In this document: piece after piece, positions 16,426 to 60,704 of the stretch
Position numbering within the stretch: the stretch's first letter is position 1
Layout of the letters: every line of letters begins with the position of its first letter
DNA from: Peptococcaceae bacterium 1109
GTDB lineage: Bacteria > Bacillota > Limnochordia > Darwinibacteriales > Darwinibacteriaceae
Length of the DNA: 64,000 nucleotides
Assembly (NCBI GenBank): GCA_001028815.1
Contig: LDJB01000001.1
Span: forward strand, 1-64,000
Direction: 5' to 3'
Notes under the pieces: generated by a model
Databases searched by the model: none
Told to the model about the DNA's origin: nothing
The model's input: the letters and a program-made list of their open reading frames with translations, nothing else
Position numbers and translations under genes: made by a program

Positions 16426-16454
16426 TTGACACTCGACAAATTTCGAAATATAAT
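16426..16454 (+). promoter_or_regulatory. Consensus sigma-A promoter of codY
   Basis: TTGACA at 16426-16431 and TATAAT at 16449-16454 are both perfect, with the optimal 17-base spacing. The expected transcript starts about 40 bases before ATG 16501. Confidence 0.9.
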
Positions 16455-16500
16455 CAACATTAGAGGCAACTCGACATATCTGAAAGGTGGAAACAAGACG

Positions 16501-17247
16501 ATGCTGATCAATAAGATGCAGTCCCTCACACACCTCCTCCAGCGAGATGGAGCCCGGGTGAATTTTGATGATTTTTGCCAGGCAATTCGCGCAGGTGTTA
16601 CCGGTGCGAATATATACTTGATTACCCGCAAAGGGAAGCTCCTTGGCTATGCGTTGGAGGCAGGGTTTGAGAACACCCCCTTCGATCAGGAATGGCTCGA
16701 CAGCCGGGAAGCCCCAAACGAGCTCCAATCGACGGTCAACCGGGTTGCAGCCCAAAGCGTGATTCCCTGGACCAACGGCGAGCTCGTGATGGTCACCCCT
16801 GTGGTGGGAGGCGATGAGCGAGTTGGTTCCCTGCTGTTTGTTAGGGAAGAGGGAGAGTTCAACGAGGATGACGAGATCATCGGTGAGTTTGCTGCCACTA
16901 CCGCAGGCATGATCATTGCCCGGGTCATTGACGAGCGGCAGGAAGATGAAGTGGCAGAGGTGCGGGCAGCCCGCAACGCCATTAACAGCTTGTCATATTC
17001 GGAAGTCATGGCCATGCAGCGCATTTTTGAAGAGCTGGATGGGGACGAAGGCCTGCTGGTAGCCAGCAGGATTGCAGATGAAGCAGGCATTACCCGCTCC
17101 GTGATCGTCAACGCCCTGCGCAAACTGGCTTCTGCCAACGTGATTGAATCCCGCTCTCTGGGGATGAAAGGTACCTACCTGCGCATCCTCAATAAGGAGA
17201 TTCGGAAAGAATTCGACCGGCACTGGTATCCCCAGACTAGGTCGTAA
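16501..17247 (+). CDS. codY: CodY, GTP- and branched-chain-amino-acid-sensing repressor
   Basis: Global regulator that senses GTP and isoleucine/valine/leucine and represses nutrient-limitation genes. The 248 residues have an N-terminal GAF-like effector domain (about 1-155) and a C-terminal winged helix (about 185-240) with ASRIADEAGITRSVIVNAL and ESRSLGMKGTYL, nearly the family consensus. ATG 16501 has AAAGGTGG ten bases upstream. The family in other Firmicutes often sits with clpYQ/xerC, which are absent here. It has its own consensus promoter and a CodY-like box, suggesting autoregulation. Confidence 0.96.
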   Translation: MLINKMQSLTHLLQRDGARVNFDDFCQAIRAGVTGANIYLITRKGKLLGYALEAGFENTPFDQEWLDSREAPNELQSTVNRVAAQSVIPWTNGELVMVTPVVGGDERVGSLLFVREEGEFNEDDEIIGEFAATTAGMIIARVIDERQEDEVAEVRAARNAINSLSYSEVMAMQRIFEELDGDEGLLVASRIADEAGITRSVIVNALRKLASANVIESRSLGMKGTYLRILNKEIRKEFDRHWYPQTRS

Positions 17248-17250
17248 AGG

Positions 17251-17273
17251 AAGGCCCTCAGTGAGGGCCTTTA
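17251..17273 (+). terminator. Terminator after codY, shared with the convergent kinase gene
   Basis: AAGGCCCTC and GAGGGCCTT form a 9-bp stem with a three-base loop followed by TATTTG. The stop codon of the minus-strand kinase gene lies inside the hairpin. Confidence 0.75.
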
Positions 17274-18493
17274 TTTGTGCTATTAGATTGCTCTGTGGGA
17301 AAAGTGATGGTTACTGTGGTGCCCAGCTCGCTGGAGTCGATGGCCGCTTGAGCATCGTACTTTTCCAGAATCCGAAAGCATACGGGAAGCCCCAGCCCTG
17401 TGCCTCGCTCTTTTGTTGTGAAAAAGGGAGTGCCGACCTTAGCCATGATCTCCGGCGGTATGCCGTGCCCCGTATCCTTGATGCGGAGGACGGCATGGGG
17501 ATAGCTGTGCTCAGTGGTGATGGTCAAGACTCCGTTCGCGGGCATGGCATCGAAGGCGTTCTGCGCGAGATTAAGGATCACTTGGCGGGCTTCTGCAGGC
17601 TTACAGGGAACGTCAGGGACAGGGGACAGCTCGATGCGTACCCATTGATGGCGCTTAGCCGCAGCCGCTTCCAGCAGGGGGCGGACAGCATCGATGACCG
17701 AGTTTAAGTTGCAGCCTGTGCTGCTGGTGGGGGCAAACGTTTTCGCTAAACACAGGAACTGGCGGGCAAGCATATCTACCCGGTCCACCTCATCGATGAC
17801 CTTGTCGATAATATCACCGTAGAGGTTGAACTCTGGTTTGCTGTGGAGCAGTTCCATCAGGGCTCGGATTGCCGTAATAGGATTTCGGATTTCGTGTACC
17901 ACTTCCGCCGTAATGGTGCGCAGCACATTGTAGCGGTTAAGGGTGGACAAGGCACCGTTGTGGGTTGATGTTCCTCGGAAGAATGTGAACGTGTGGCTGT
18001 TGGAAAGAGCGATTATTTCAGCTAGGCTGCATGCTTGGAGAGGGTAGGGGCAGAGGACAATGGCAGGTTGATCTTCGAGGAGCTGATCGAGCACAGCTTC
18101 CTGGGCGAGGATAGTATCCCTATCCCAGGGAAAGACGTCCGCAGTGCAGTGGACCACCCTGAGTCCCGTATAGCCTTCCTTGAGCAGGATGGTTACCTTG
18201 TGCCGCCATTTCTCCAGCAAGGCCTCAGGTTGGTGGCCTCCTGTCAGGCACCATTCGCTATAGGGCGCGATCTCCACTTGCTGCCGTGGGGCCTTGTCAA
18301 GAGCACGGGAATCAGTATTTGTGATCCAGAGGCAGTACTCATTGGCTGCAGCTCCAGCACTGAGAAAGGCCATAACCATCTGCATATGGTCTTGCTCACT
18401 CTCGTAGAAGCCGCACATATGAGTGCCCCAAGGAACGCGATCGAGAAACTCAATGCCTGTGTGCCGCAGTTCGCTGCGCGCCTGAGGTTGCAT
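17258..18493 (-). CDS. Orphan sensor histidine kinase with MEDS domain
   Basis: A 411-residue soluble kinase. Residues about 10-175 match the MEDS sensory domain (GTHMCGFYES near the N-terminus), a RecA/KaiC-like input module first seen in methanogen and methylotroph regulators. The HisKA helix carries the phospho-acceptor His200 in VVHEIRNP. The HATPase domain follows (NLAQNAFDAM N-box, DTGHGIPPE G1, GTGLGLPV G2). There is no membrane segment, so it senses an internal signal. No response regulator gene is adjacent, as is usual for sporulation kinases that feed Spo0F/Spo0A. Two perfect Spo0A boxes lie just upstream, so it may be a Spo0A-controlled phosphorelay kinase. GGGGAGA lies six bases before ATG (plus 18491-18493). 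Confidence 0.88.
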   Translation of the reverse strand: MQPQARSELRHTGIEFLDRVPWGTHMCGFYESEQDHMQMVMAFLSAGAAANEYCLWITNTDSRALDKAPRQQVEIAPYSEWCLTGGHQPEALLEKWRHKVTILLKEGYTGLRVVHCTADVFPWDRDTILAQEAVLDQLLEDQPAIVLCPYPLQACSLAEIIALSNSHTFTFFRGTSTHNGALSTLNRYNVLRTITAEVVHEIRNPITAIRALMELLHSKPEFNLYGDIIDKVIDEVDRVDMLARQFLCLAKTFAPTSSTGCNLNSVIDAVRPLLEAAAAKRHQWVRIELSPVPDVPCKPAEARQVILNLAQNAFDAMPANGVLTITTEHSYPHAVLRIKDTGHGIPPEIMAKVGTPFFTTKERGTGLGLPVCFRILEKYDAQAAIDSSELGTTVTITFPTEQSNSTNKGPH

Positions 18494-18522
18494 AGCAGAT
18501 CTCCCCGTACGTTGATTGCCGC

Positions 18523-18540
18523 TTCGTCAATGTTTCGACA
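18523..18540 (-). promoter_or_regulatory. Tandem Spo0A (0A) boxes upstream of the MEDS kinase
   Basis: On the minus strand TGTCGAA (plus 18534-18540) and TGACGAA (plus 18523-18529) both fit TGNCGAA. They are 11 bp apart centre to centre, one helical turn and on the same face. An AAAGGAGTT element about 20 bases upstream resembles a sigma-H -35. Confidence 0.55.
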
Positions 18541-18583
18541 CAGCCTGTGAAACTCCTTTACATATATTGAGTAAAATTAGAAA

Positions 18584-19744
18584 TTATTGCGAATCATCGT
18601 TTATCAGAGTGCGCCCCTTAGTAATGGCACCCCGCTGAAACCGAGCGTTGATCTTGTCCATGACCTCACTGAGGCGGTGGGCGCTCTCTACCTCCTCAAA
18701 AAGAGACAGCTGTACCGCTTCTGTGAGGTTGCTCACAGTTACTCCTAGCAAGCGGATAGGCTGCAGTTTTTCCCCCTCCAGCAGCCTGAAGGAGGTGTGG
18801 AAGATCGTATCGTCGTCGCAAAAAGCTGCTTCAAGGGTGTGGCTCCTTGTGATAGTTCTGAAGTTATAGTAGCGGACTTTCAGGGTTACCGTACGGGCAT
18901 AGAGGTTGTGGCGGCGGAGGCGCCAGCCCACATCTTCCACCAAGCGCCCCAGCTGGCTTTTGAGTATGGCAAGGCTGGTTACATCGTCCTCAAAGGTGAT
19001 TTCATGGCCGATTGATTTTGCCTCATGGAGCGGCTCCACCTTTCGGGGGTCAATCCCCCTGGCCAGGTTGTAGATATGGAGTCCGAAGGACTGGCCAAAC
19101 TTAGCCTCTAAGTCCTGTAGGGAATAAGACAGCAGATCACGAACGTAGTAAATGCCGAGCTTGTTCAGCTCTTGCGCGGATTTCTTGCCCACACCCCAGA
19201 GTTTCCCAATGGGCAAGTTGTGCAGGAAGTCATCTACCTCCTCTGGGCGGATGATGCACAGGCCATCAGGTTTGTTCCGGTCTGAGGCCAGTTTGGCTAG
19301 GAACTTGTTTGGGGCAACGCCAACAGAGGCTGTAAGGCCCGTTTCTTCTTTTATGCGCCCTTTGAGGCGGAGGGCCATGGATTCCAGATCAGGGTAGAAG
19401 TGTTCACAGCCGGTCATGTCAAGGAATGCCTCGTCAATTGACAAGGGCTCCACAATAGGAGAGAATTCAGGAAAGATGGCATGAATTTTCTCGGAAACTT
19501 CCCGGTAGCGGCCCATGCGGCCGGGAATGAAGATCCCGTGGGGACAAAGGGCCACCGCTTGGGCGATGGGCATGGCGCTGTGCACGCCGTATTGCCGAGC
19601 CTCATACGAACAGGTGGAGACCACGCCCCGGCGGCTGTCTTTGTATCCCCCAACGATCAAGGGTTTGCCCGCGTACTCTGGATTGTCCAAGACCTCCACC
19701 GCGGCAAAGAACGCATCCATGTCAACATGCATTATAGTTGCCAT
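18584..19744 (-). CDS. dinB: DNA polymerase IV (Y-family translesion polymerase)
   Basis: Error-prone polymerase that bypasses damaged template. The 386 residues contain DMDAFFAAVE, the catalytic SIDEAF acidic pair, the thumb/HhH region IGKLWGVGKKS, and a C-terminal sliding-clamp motif QLSLF. The start is ATG at plus 19742-19744 because GGAGGG is well placed upstream and the protein then begins five residues before the first catalytic motif; an open frame extends further upstream without homology. I see no LexA box. Divergent from hflX. Confidence 0.95.
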   Translation of the reverse strand: MATIMHVDMDAFFAAVEVLDNPEYAGKPLIVGGYKDSRRGVVSTCSYEARQYGVHSAMPIAQAVALCPHGIFIPGRMGRYREVSEKIHAIFPEFSPIVEPLSIDEAFLDMTGCEHFYPDLESMALRLKGRIKEETGLTASVGVAPNKFLAKLASDRNKPDGLCIIRPEEVDDFLHNLPIGKLWGVGKKSAQELNKLGIYYVRDLLSYSLQDLEAKFGQSFGLHIYNLARGIDPRKVEPLHEAKSIGHEITFEDDVTSLAILKSQLGRLVEDVGWRLRRHNLYARTVTLKVRYYNFRTITRSHTLEAAFCDDDTIFHTSFRLLEGEKLQPIRLLGVTVSNLTEAVQLSLFEEVESAHRLSEVMDKINARFQRGAITKGRTLINDDSQ

Positions 19745-19816
19745 AGGCCATCCCTCCGGGGTAAGATTTCTGGAGGAGAGTGTTTGATTCCTCCATGGAC
19801 GAATTGAGGTGTTGTG

Positions 19817-21031
19817 ATGCAAAGAACATACCTAGTGTCCCTGCAGCTGCCTGGGGACAGCGATTGGGATGTGGAAGACAGCCTCCGGGAGCTGAAGGAC
19901 TTAGCGGAAGATGCAGGCCTGGAAGTGGTAGATTGGTTCGTGCAAAAGCGGCCTTTCCCTGATGCCGCAACGTTCATCGGCAGCGGGAAGGCAGAGGAGC
20001 TCGCCGCTGTAGTGGAGCCTGAAGACCTGGTCATCTTTGACAACGAACTCAGCCCTGCTCAGCAAGGGAATCTGTCGGATATCATCGGCGCAGCGGTGAT
20101 TGACCGCACCCAACTCATCTTAGATATTTTCGCGCAGCGGGCTTGGACCAGGGAAGGGAAAATCCAGGTGGAGCTCGCTCAGCTGAACTACCTTCTGCCG
20201 CGCCTGGTTGGTTCAGGGGCCGCGCTGTCCCGGTTGGGCGGAGGAATTGGGACCCGAGGCCCAGGGGAAACGAAGCTGGAAACCGATCGCAGGCGGGTCC
20301 GTAAGCGCATCACCGACCTCAAAGCGGAACTGGAAACAGTGCGCCACGTCCGGGCAACGCAGCGGGCCCGCCGGGAGAAGCTCGCGGTACCCCTTGTAGC
20401 TTTAGTAGGATACACGAACGCAGGGAAATCTACGCTGCTGCGGGCCTTAACCGGGTCTGAAACCTTTGTTGCTGACCAGCTCTTTGCCACCTTGGATCCC
20501 ACTGTGCGCCGCTGGGAGCTCCCAGATGGCCGCTGGGTGTTCTTAAGCGACACGGTTGGCTTTATCCGCCGCCTCCCCCACACGCTGGTTGCCGCCTTCA
20601 GGGCGACCTTGGAGGAAATCTTGTATGCAGATCTTCTCCTTCATGTGATAGATATCAGCCATCCTCAGGCGCGGGAACAGCAAGAGGCGGTGGAGAAGGT
20701 GCTTGCAGAGATTGGTGCCGCGCAGCCAGTGATTAATGTGTATAATAAGATAGATATATGTCCCGACGGACAGGAGTTTACCGGGCTAGGCGTGGCAGTC
20801 TCAGGGGTTACCGGAGAGAACCTGGACCGGCTTGCCCATGAAGTAACGGCCTTTTTCAGCAAGTATTTGAGTGTGCAGACCTTCCGCTTTGCCTTTTCTG
20901 ACCTTGGCAGTGCGAGTAAGCTCCGAGAGCTAGGAAGAGTGCTTGAAGAGCGCTACACTGCTGAAGGACTAGAGATTACGGCCGAGGTTGATCCAGCCAC
21001 CGCTGGCTTGCTGCGGGATTATCGCATTTGA
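19817..21031 (+). CDS. hflX: HflX ribosome-associated GTPase
   Basis: GTPase that binds the ribosome and helps split or rescue stalled ribosomes. The 404 residues have the HflX N-terminal domain, the linker GTRGPGETKLE, and a G domain with P-loop GYTNAGKST, DTVGF and NKID. ATG 19817 follows GAGGTG by about six bases; GTG 19814 is directly upstream in frame. It is first of a co-directional run that reaches the ATP synthase genes. Confidence 0.95.
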   Translation: MQRTYLVSLQLPGDSDWDVEDSLRELKDLAEDAGLEVVDWFVQKRPFPDAATFIGSGKAEELAAVVEPEDLVIFDNELSPAQQGNLSDIIGAAVIDRTQLILDIFAQRAWTREGKIQVELAQLNYLLPRLVGSGAALSRLGGGIGTRGPGETKLETDRRRVRKRITDLKAELETVRHVRATQRARREKLAVPLVALVGYTNAGKSTLLRALTGSETFVADQLFATLDPTVRRWELPDGRWVFLSDTVGFIRRLPHTLVAAFRATLEEILYADLLLHVIDISHPQAREQQEAVEKVLAEIGAAQPVINVYNKIDICPDGQEFTGLGVAVSGVTGENLDRLAHEVTAFFSKYLSVQTFRFAFSDLGSASKLRELGRVLEERYTAEGLEITAEVDPATAGLLRDYRI

Positions 21032-36118: not shown

Positions 36119-36154
36119 GATTCAGCGGGAAAGGGACAGGAATTGCCCCGGCTT

Positions 36155-36161
36155 TGTCGAA
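36155..36161 (+). promoter_or_regulatory. Possible Spo0A box before mbl
   Basis: TGTCGAA is a perfect match to TGNCGAA, followed 17 bases later by the one-mismatch CGTCGAA. Single 7-mers occur by chance, so this is weak. Confidence 0.25.
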
Positions 36162-36196
36162 CACATGTAAAGTGATTCGTCGAAGGGGGCAGGCAG

Positions 36197-60301: not shown

Positions 60302-60704
60302 GCTGTCGGCAGGAATTATGTGTATTGCGGGGAATTTAATGCGTATGACAGTGCTTGGTACTGCCCACGGACATAGAAACAACTTGCAGCCTACAGCGGA
60401 TAAACCGGGGGGAGAAAATATTCTGTACCCCCGCAAAAACGCGATCCCAATAGAAGGATTCTAAGGGAGAATCTCGAAGTACCAAGTAATCAGTGTGTCT
60501 AGCCGCAGTAGGCTGTGGGTATGGATGGTTAGAAAGGAGGTGCCCGTGGTTACCGCCTAACCCGAGAGACTGCAGGTGAGGCACGCCCCTTGCTTGGTTA
60601 GCAGGATGAGGTAACTAGGAAACTCATTCGTGCAGCCGCCGCAAGGGTTCTGCATCTAACTAACAACACACAACATAACCTGAAAAACCACTAAGGGGGT
60701 AAAA
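60302..60704 (+). other. 400-base leader region of ompM with several hairpins
   Basis: No gene is supported here. I see a hairpin GGGGG-AGAA...TTCT-CCCCC at about 60407-60432, a second GATTCT-AAGGG-AGAATC at about 60457-60473, and an isolated AAAGGAGG at 60533-60540 followed only by GTG and a four-codon frame, next to the inverted repeat GGTTA...TAACC. No riboswitch class is recognised. It probably holds the promoter and a long structured 5' untranslated region of the abundant porin mRNA. Confidence 0.45.

Follow-up and report, generated by a model that had tools for sequence, protein, structure and literature searches.

The gene at 17258-18493 of the 64,000-nucleotide stretch of DNA analysed here (the window) encodes a soluble orphan histidine kinase with a MEDS input domain. 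In the reading that we prefer, at a probability of roughly 45%, it would be an accessory kinase of the KinA/KinB kind that is transcribed by sigma-H and phosphorylates Spo0A directly; what we say of sigma-H use, of partner and ligand and of any effect on sporulation is inferred from sequence.

A soluble MEDS histidine kinase without an adjoining response regulator

The kinase gene and its surroundings comprise the following features (window positions).

17258-18493, minus strand: orphan MEDS-HisKA-HATPase_c histidine kinase gene, 411 aa, with its ATG at 18493-18491
17993-18424, minus strand: MEDS sensor domain, residues 24-167 (E 8.5e-24)
17741-17920, minus strand: HisKA domain, residues 192-251, with H200 within HEIRNPIT
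17291-17599, minus strand: HATPase_c domain, residues 299-401, N/D/G boxes intact
18501-18506, minus strand: ribosome-binding site GGGGAG of the kinase gene, read from the sequence
17251-17271, no strand: hairpin AAGGCCCTC-AGT-GAGGGCCTT separating the ends of the convergent kinase and codY genes, spotted by eye
18584-19822, minus strand: Y-family DNA polymerase of dinB type, upstream neighbour, synteny kept in genomes G001 and G005
16426-17247, plus strand: codY, convergent downstream neighbour, synteny kept in G001 and G005

The minus-strand open reading frame (18493 down to 17258), its domain matches and its hydropathy (highest 19-residue mean, 1.63) agree on a soluble histidine kinase with a MEDS input, as the first-pass annotation had proposed. 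The MEDS domain scored 84.6 bits against PF14417 (curated Pfam cut-off 29.8), and the HisKA/HATPase_c portion has the phosphorylatable histidine and intact ATP-binding boxes. The earlier statement that no response regulator lies beside the gene was also borne out, its flanks being the dinB-type polymerase upstream and the convergent codY downstream. A domain search gave no match to a PAS domain at the kinase N-terminus, where the MEDS domain sits instead; an N-terminal PAS is a frequent, not an obligatory, trait of orphan sporulation kinases. The orthologues in G001, of the same genus, and G005 are 68% and 58% identical to the kinase. Comparison with the G001 gene yielded a dN of 0.23 with dS saturated, and by these sequence measures the kinase gene is under purifying selection.

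A putative sigma-H-type promoter and two Spo0A-like boxes

Upstream of the kinase gene, the following elements were identified.

18561-18583, minus strand: conserved A/T-rich block TTnCnAATTnTnCnCnATATATG directly upstream of the -35, from the three-genome alignment
18551-18559, minus strand: sigma-H-type -35 AAAGGAGTT, with AAAGGA identical in all three syntenic orthologues
18531-18539, minus strand: sigma-H-type -10 GTCGAAACA after an 11-nt spacer, GTnGAA invariant in the three orthologues, overlapping box 1
18534-18540, minus strand: Spo0A-like box 1, TGTCGAA, exact, overlapping the sigma-H-type -10; TGTAGAA in G001 and GGTCGAA in G005
18523-18529, minus strand: Spo0A-like box 2, TGACGAA, exact, near the expected transcription start; absent in G001 and G005

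The sigma-H consensus is RNAGGAWWW / RNNGAATWW with an N11/12 spacer (PMC8510167), and AAAGGA and GTnGAA are invariant in the window, G001 and G005 at this spacing. Both cores are kept at a distance at which synonymous sites are saturated, and of the 30 non-coding columns that span the A/T-rich block and AAAGGA, 23 are invariant in the three genomes. By itself, the site in the window is not significant, its best N11 score being 12 of 15 (shuffle p 0.16); the corresponding scores were 13 in G001 (p 0.009) and 14 in G005 (p 0.005). Near-perfect N11 promoters also precede each of two more distant orthologues from another family, in G032 (14, p 0.008) and G024 (15, p <0.0002), where G032 and G024 are not independent of each other, nor are the window, G001 and G005. 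No sigma-H-type site was found before three remoter orthologues of family f10 (L057, L058 and L055). The genome encodes SigH (380.7 bits, cut-off 294.8) and holds 21 perfect sigma-H consensus sites, 18 of them with an N11 spacer, versus 0 in the reversed control; one precedes the ribosome hibernation factor HPF. These data suggest that the kinase gene is transcribed from a sigma-H-type promoter. The upstream regions had no Rfam match, and comparison by eye with the CodY consensus gave no support for a CodY site in the conserved block.

Other sigma-H-type sites lie elsewhere in the genome. A perfect one in the window, GCAGGAATT-N11-GGGGAATTT (60309-60337, plus strand), lies 367 bp before an 818-aa protein with S-layer-homology domains, and no convincing short ORF follows directly downstream. 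Another, scoring 13/15 (36136-36164, plus strand), is located between spoIIID and mbl/mreB and carries TGTCGAA in its -10 region, so that box and -10 overlap there as they do at the kinase promoter. Two perfect N12 matches, at L069 and L078, were considered as paired small RNAs and rejected, because they run antisense to the beginnings of paralogous long ORFs. The latter are probably insertion-sequence transposases and have near-identical 5' hairpins beside the antisense sigma-H-like matches; the hairpins had no Rfam match.

The two boxes, which had been taken as a sign of Spo0A feedback, are exact TGNCGAA sites on the strand of the kinase gene, 11 bp apart start to start, and that much of the description holds. 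As a pair they do not exceed chance: same-strand TGNCGAA pairs with gaps of 2-5 bp number four in the 2.7-Mb genome, as in the reversed-pattern control (1.9 expected from site density), and single sites number 38 in the window against 29 +/- 5 (5 of 100 shuffles as high). Under the stricter pattern TGWCGAA the genome has no pair other than that of the kinase gene, against an expectation of about 0.26, which makes this pair mildly unusual. Spo0A contacts box bases G2, C4 and G5 (PMC3485338). The G001 orthologue has lost a contact base in each box, C4 in TGTAGAA and G5 in TGACACG; G005 has GGTCGAA in place of box 1 and no second box. Conservation of the boxes among orthologues, the mark of a direct Spo0A regulon member, was thus not found for the kinase gene. 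Nor were box pairs found before spoIIAA, spo0A or sigH of the same genome (a single exact box lies at -118 of spoIIAA, and the upstream regions of spo0A and sigH have none), so the local box geometry could not be learnt.

Since the conserved -35 and -10 blocks lie at this very spot, box 1 overlaps a probable sigma-H -10 and box 2 falls at the start expected some 7 nt downstream of the -10, near 18524. Spo0A bound over the -10/+1 region would block rather than activate transcription. Spo0A at these boxes would cover -10/+1 and thus probably occupy a repressing position, making the pair at most a lineage-specific addition that represses the gene once Spo0A~P is high. Unconserved, at chance level genome-wide and placed on the sigma-H-type promoter, the paired boxes do not support the Spo0A feedback previously proposed.

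Candidate partners in the genome

When the whole genome (96.75% complete) was searched with Pfam models, 12 receiver proteins and 15 HATPase_c proteins were found, and their surroundings were then inspected. The 12 receivers comprise the che-cluster proteins CheY and CheB, two Spo0As and eight regulators encoded next to kinases; CheY, CheB and CheA apart, the only receivers with no adjoining kinase are the two Spo0As. Complete kinases without a receiver neighbour are limited to the MEDS kinase and a MASE3/SPOB_a kinase, and the MEDS kinase is the only complete orphan with a HisKA domain.

L117:6053-6799, plus strand (C1:386478): Spo0A-family regulator, NCBIfam match
L118:6252-7007, minus strand (C1:696275): second Spo0A-family regulator, NCBIfam match
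C2:461738-463123 (L114:3736-5124), minus strand: orphan MASE3 + SPOB_a + HATPase_c kinase, Pfam match

Both Spo0As exceed the NCBIfam Spo0A cut-off (263 and 209 versus 200 bits). The one at C1:696275 carries an N-terminal N-E-L-L-E-Y, the pattern expected at Spo0A specificity positions (compared with Table 1 of PMC6136694). The Spo0A at C1:386478 no longer has the acidic pair of the receiver N-terminus (VVAPQM) but retains a candidate phospho-Asp.

Spo0F was not found in the 96.75% complete genome, where the sole stand-alone receiver is CheY, between cheC and cheA. Neither was Spo0B: the only SPOB_a match is the 462-aa MASE3 kinase, and a highly diverged Spo0B is possible. These absences hold at the level of the searches, as either protein could sit in the missing ~3% or be too diverged. 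They speak against the earlier proposal of a phosphorelay kinase and make direct phosphorylation of Spo0A likelier than a relay. As the two Spo0As are the only orphan DNA-binding regulators, Spo0A is by elimination the candidate partner of the MEDS kinase. The broader suggestion of a Spo0A-pathway kinase is therefore reasonable, stripped of its phosphorelay and feedback parts. A separate HATPase_c piece (L115:6723-7235, minus strand), whose upstream frame is disrupted and which has no regulator gene close by, looks like the remnant of a degraded histidine kinase.

Kinase core and MEDS sensor domain

The best PDB match of the kinase core is KinB of Geobacillus (3d36, E 4.5e-28), and no other kinase of the genome is as KinB-like as the MEDS kinase (97.9 bits versus 82.0 for the next). 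A scan of genome contigs returned only distant kinase cores. The best NCBIfam matches, AtoS and KinD, scored alike (151 and 150 bits), so similarity of the core alone is no proof of a sporulation kinase. At the HisKA specificity positions the kinase reads TAALEL and its orthologues TAALQL and SVATQL. Of the six residues TAALEL, three match KinA (TAGFQL); Dtox_1564 has TAAFEL and CA_C3319 has SVGLQL. The residues TAALEL are compatible with either Spo0A or Spo0F as partner and prove neither.

The predicted MEDS fold comes from a model of that domain alone, with a pLDDT of 78 and a pTM of 0.77; the full-length AlphaFold model (71 and 0.44) positions nothing but the kinase core. The MEDS model matched Elp4/Elp6, FlaH and KaiC (Foldseek E about 1e-5 to 1e-4), with VIA-align Z-scores of 12-13 and an rmsd of about 3.1-3.4 to these RecA-fold proteins. 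The place of the P-loop reads GFYESEQDH and is without the GxxxxGK motif. A RecA/KaiC-like model lacking this motif suggests that MEDS is probably a P-loop-less sensor fold with no ATPase activity. Ten MEDS sequences have seven invariant residues in common (G23, H25, Y30, C54, E132, C148 and Y150), a hint that the domain may sense a metal, a thiol or a small molecule. A second MEDS protein of the genome (L001, C1:1097487-1097975) contains an in-frame TAA, and its downstream part resembles, by eye, an HD-GYP phosphodiesterase.

Distribution among genomes of the class

Of the 73 genomes of the class, 8 carry a MEDS kinase of the same type and 72 carry Spo0A (by Spo0A_C), mostly in two copies. 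Three of the MEDS kinase copies have in-frame stops, possibly assembly errors in draft genomes. Such a patchy and interrupted record points to an accessory, dispensable input, not a core kinase. The core of the MASE3 kinase was matched in 38 of the 73 genomes, with varied N-termini; its full-length form was matched in just G000, G001 and G005, which are also the genomes with the syntenic MEDS kinase.

Alternative explanations and significance

According to the preferred reading, sigma-H RNA polymerase would make the soluble accessory kinase as growth slows. The P-loop-less KaiC/RecA-fold MEDS domain may sense a small molecule or the redox state and would control autophosphorylation of H200, from which the phosphate would pass directly to Spo0A because no Spo0F or Spo0B was found in the genome. 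That the MEDS kinase instead works through Spo0F in a phosphorelay, under direct Spo0A feedback via its two boxes, is very unlikely. Such a kinase would account for the exact boxes, the only TGWCGAA pair of the genome, and its core would be KinB-like, as here; a perfect single box is predictive of Spo0A binding in C. difficile (PMC3485338). However, both relay proteins are missing from the search results, the boxes are broken in G001 and incomplete in G005, their pair count equals that of the control, and they overlap the -10 and the start of the putative promoter.

A stress or metabolic kinase unrelated to sporulation, under sigma-H or not and with its target regulator elsewhere, is an unlikely reading that nevertheless draws on several observations: the core is equally close to AtoS, Pfam describes MEDS as a sensor found in regulators of methylotrophs/methanogens, the distribution is patchy, and sigma-H-type sites precede non-sporulation genes too. 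Against it, the genome offers no other orphan regulator. The MASE3 + SPOB_a + HATPase_c kinase counts against the preferred reading, as its wider distribution makes it count as an equal or better Spo0A partner, and it may be the more general one. It is nonetheless distinctly unlikely that this kinase is the real Spo0A donor and that the MEDS kinase feeds it or mainly dephosphorylates Spo0A. The recurrence of its core in the class and the shared occurrence of its full form with the syntenic MEDS kinase would fit, as would the phosphatase activity of several clostridial orphan kinases (PMC11210211), but its core is closest to DcuS/MalK, the citrate/malate sensor group, and its gene lies outside the usual place of spo0B between rpmA and obg.

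Inputs to Spo0A are little known outside Bacillus and Clostridium. In a class mostly with two Spo0As, and in a genome without a detected relay, a kinase with a degenerate KaiC/RecA fold under sigma-H might feed metabolic state straight into Spo0A; that this is a new type of sporulation input is possible, if doubtful. If true, the MEDS domain would gain a physiological role. The genome leaves very few kinase-Spo0A pairings, and combining two kinases with two Spo0A receivers in vitro could define the initiation of sporulation.

Comparison with known systems

With KinA-KinE of Bacillus the kinase shares an orphan HisKA/HATPase_c arrangement, the HEIRNP H-box, a candidate sigma-H promoter and, as its closest solved relative, KinB. 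KinA is likewise cytosolic, and B. subtilis kinA is transcribed by sigma-H according to Predich 1992 as cited in PMC12090719. By contrast, MEDS here replaces the PAS or membrane sensor, the specificity residues are TAALEL rather than TAGFQL, and Spo0F and Spo0B were not found. Direct Spo0A kinases of Clostridium (CA_C3319 and PtpC) are also orphans that work without Spo0F. In CA_C3319, whose genome contains no Spo0F, the residues are relay-like (SVGLQL), but the enzyme phosphorylates Spo0A directly (PMC6136694). The sensor domains of these kinases differ from MEDS, and for the present kinase direct transfer is predicted. The RecA-fold proteins KaiC, FlaH and Elp456 share the predicted fold of MEDS, which has no P-loop motif and about 10% identity to them; the likeness does not imply an ATPase role. 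MEDS kinases themselves are already known from archaea, and a literature search for a link between MEDS and sporulation found no such paper. MA2082 of Methanosarcina acetivorans (PMC11784639) is, like the present kinase, a cytoplasmic orphan with a MEDS input; the kinase described here differs in belonging to a bacterial spore-former and in combining that input with a sigma-H-type promoter and a KinB/AtoS-like core.
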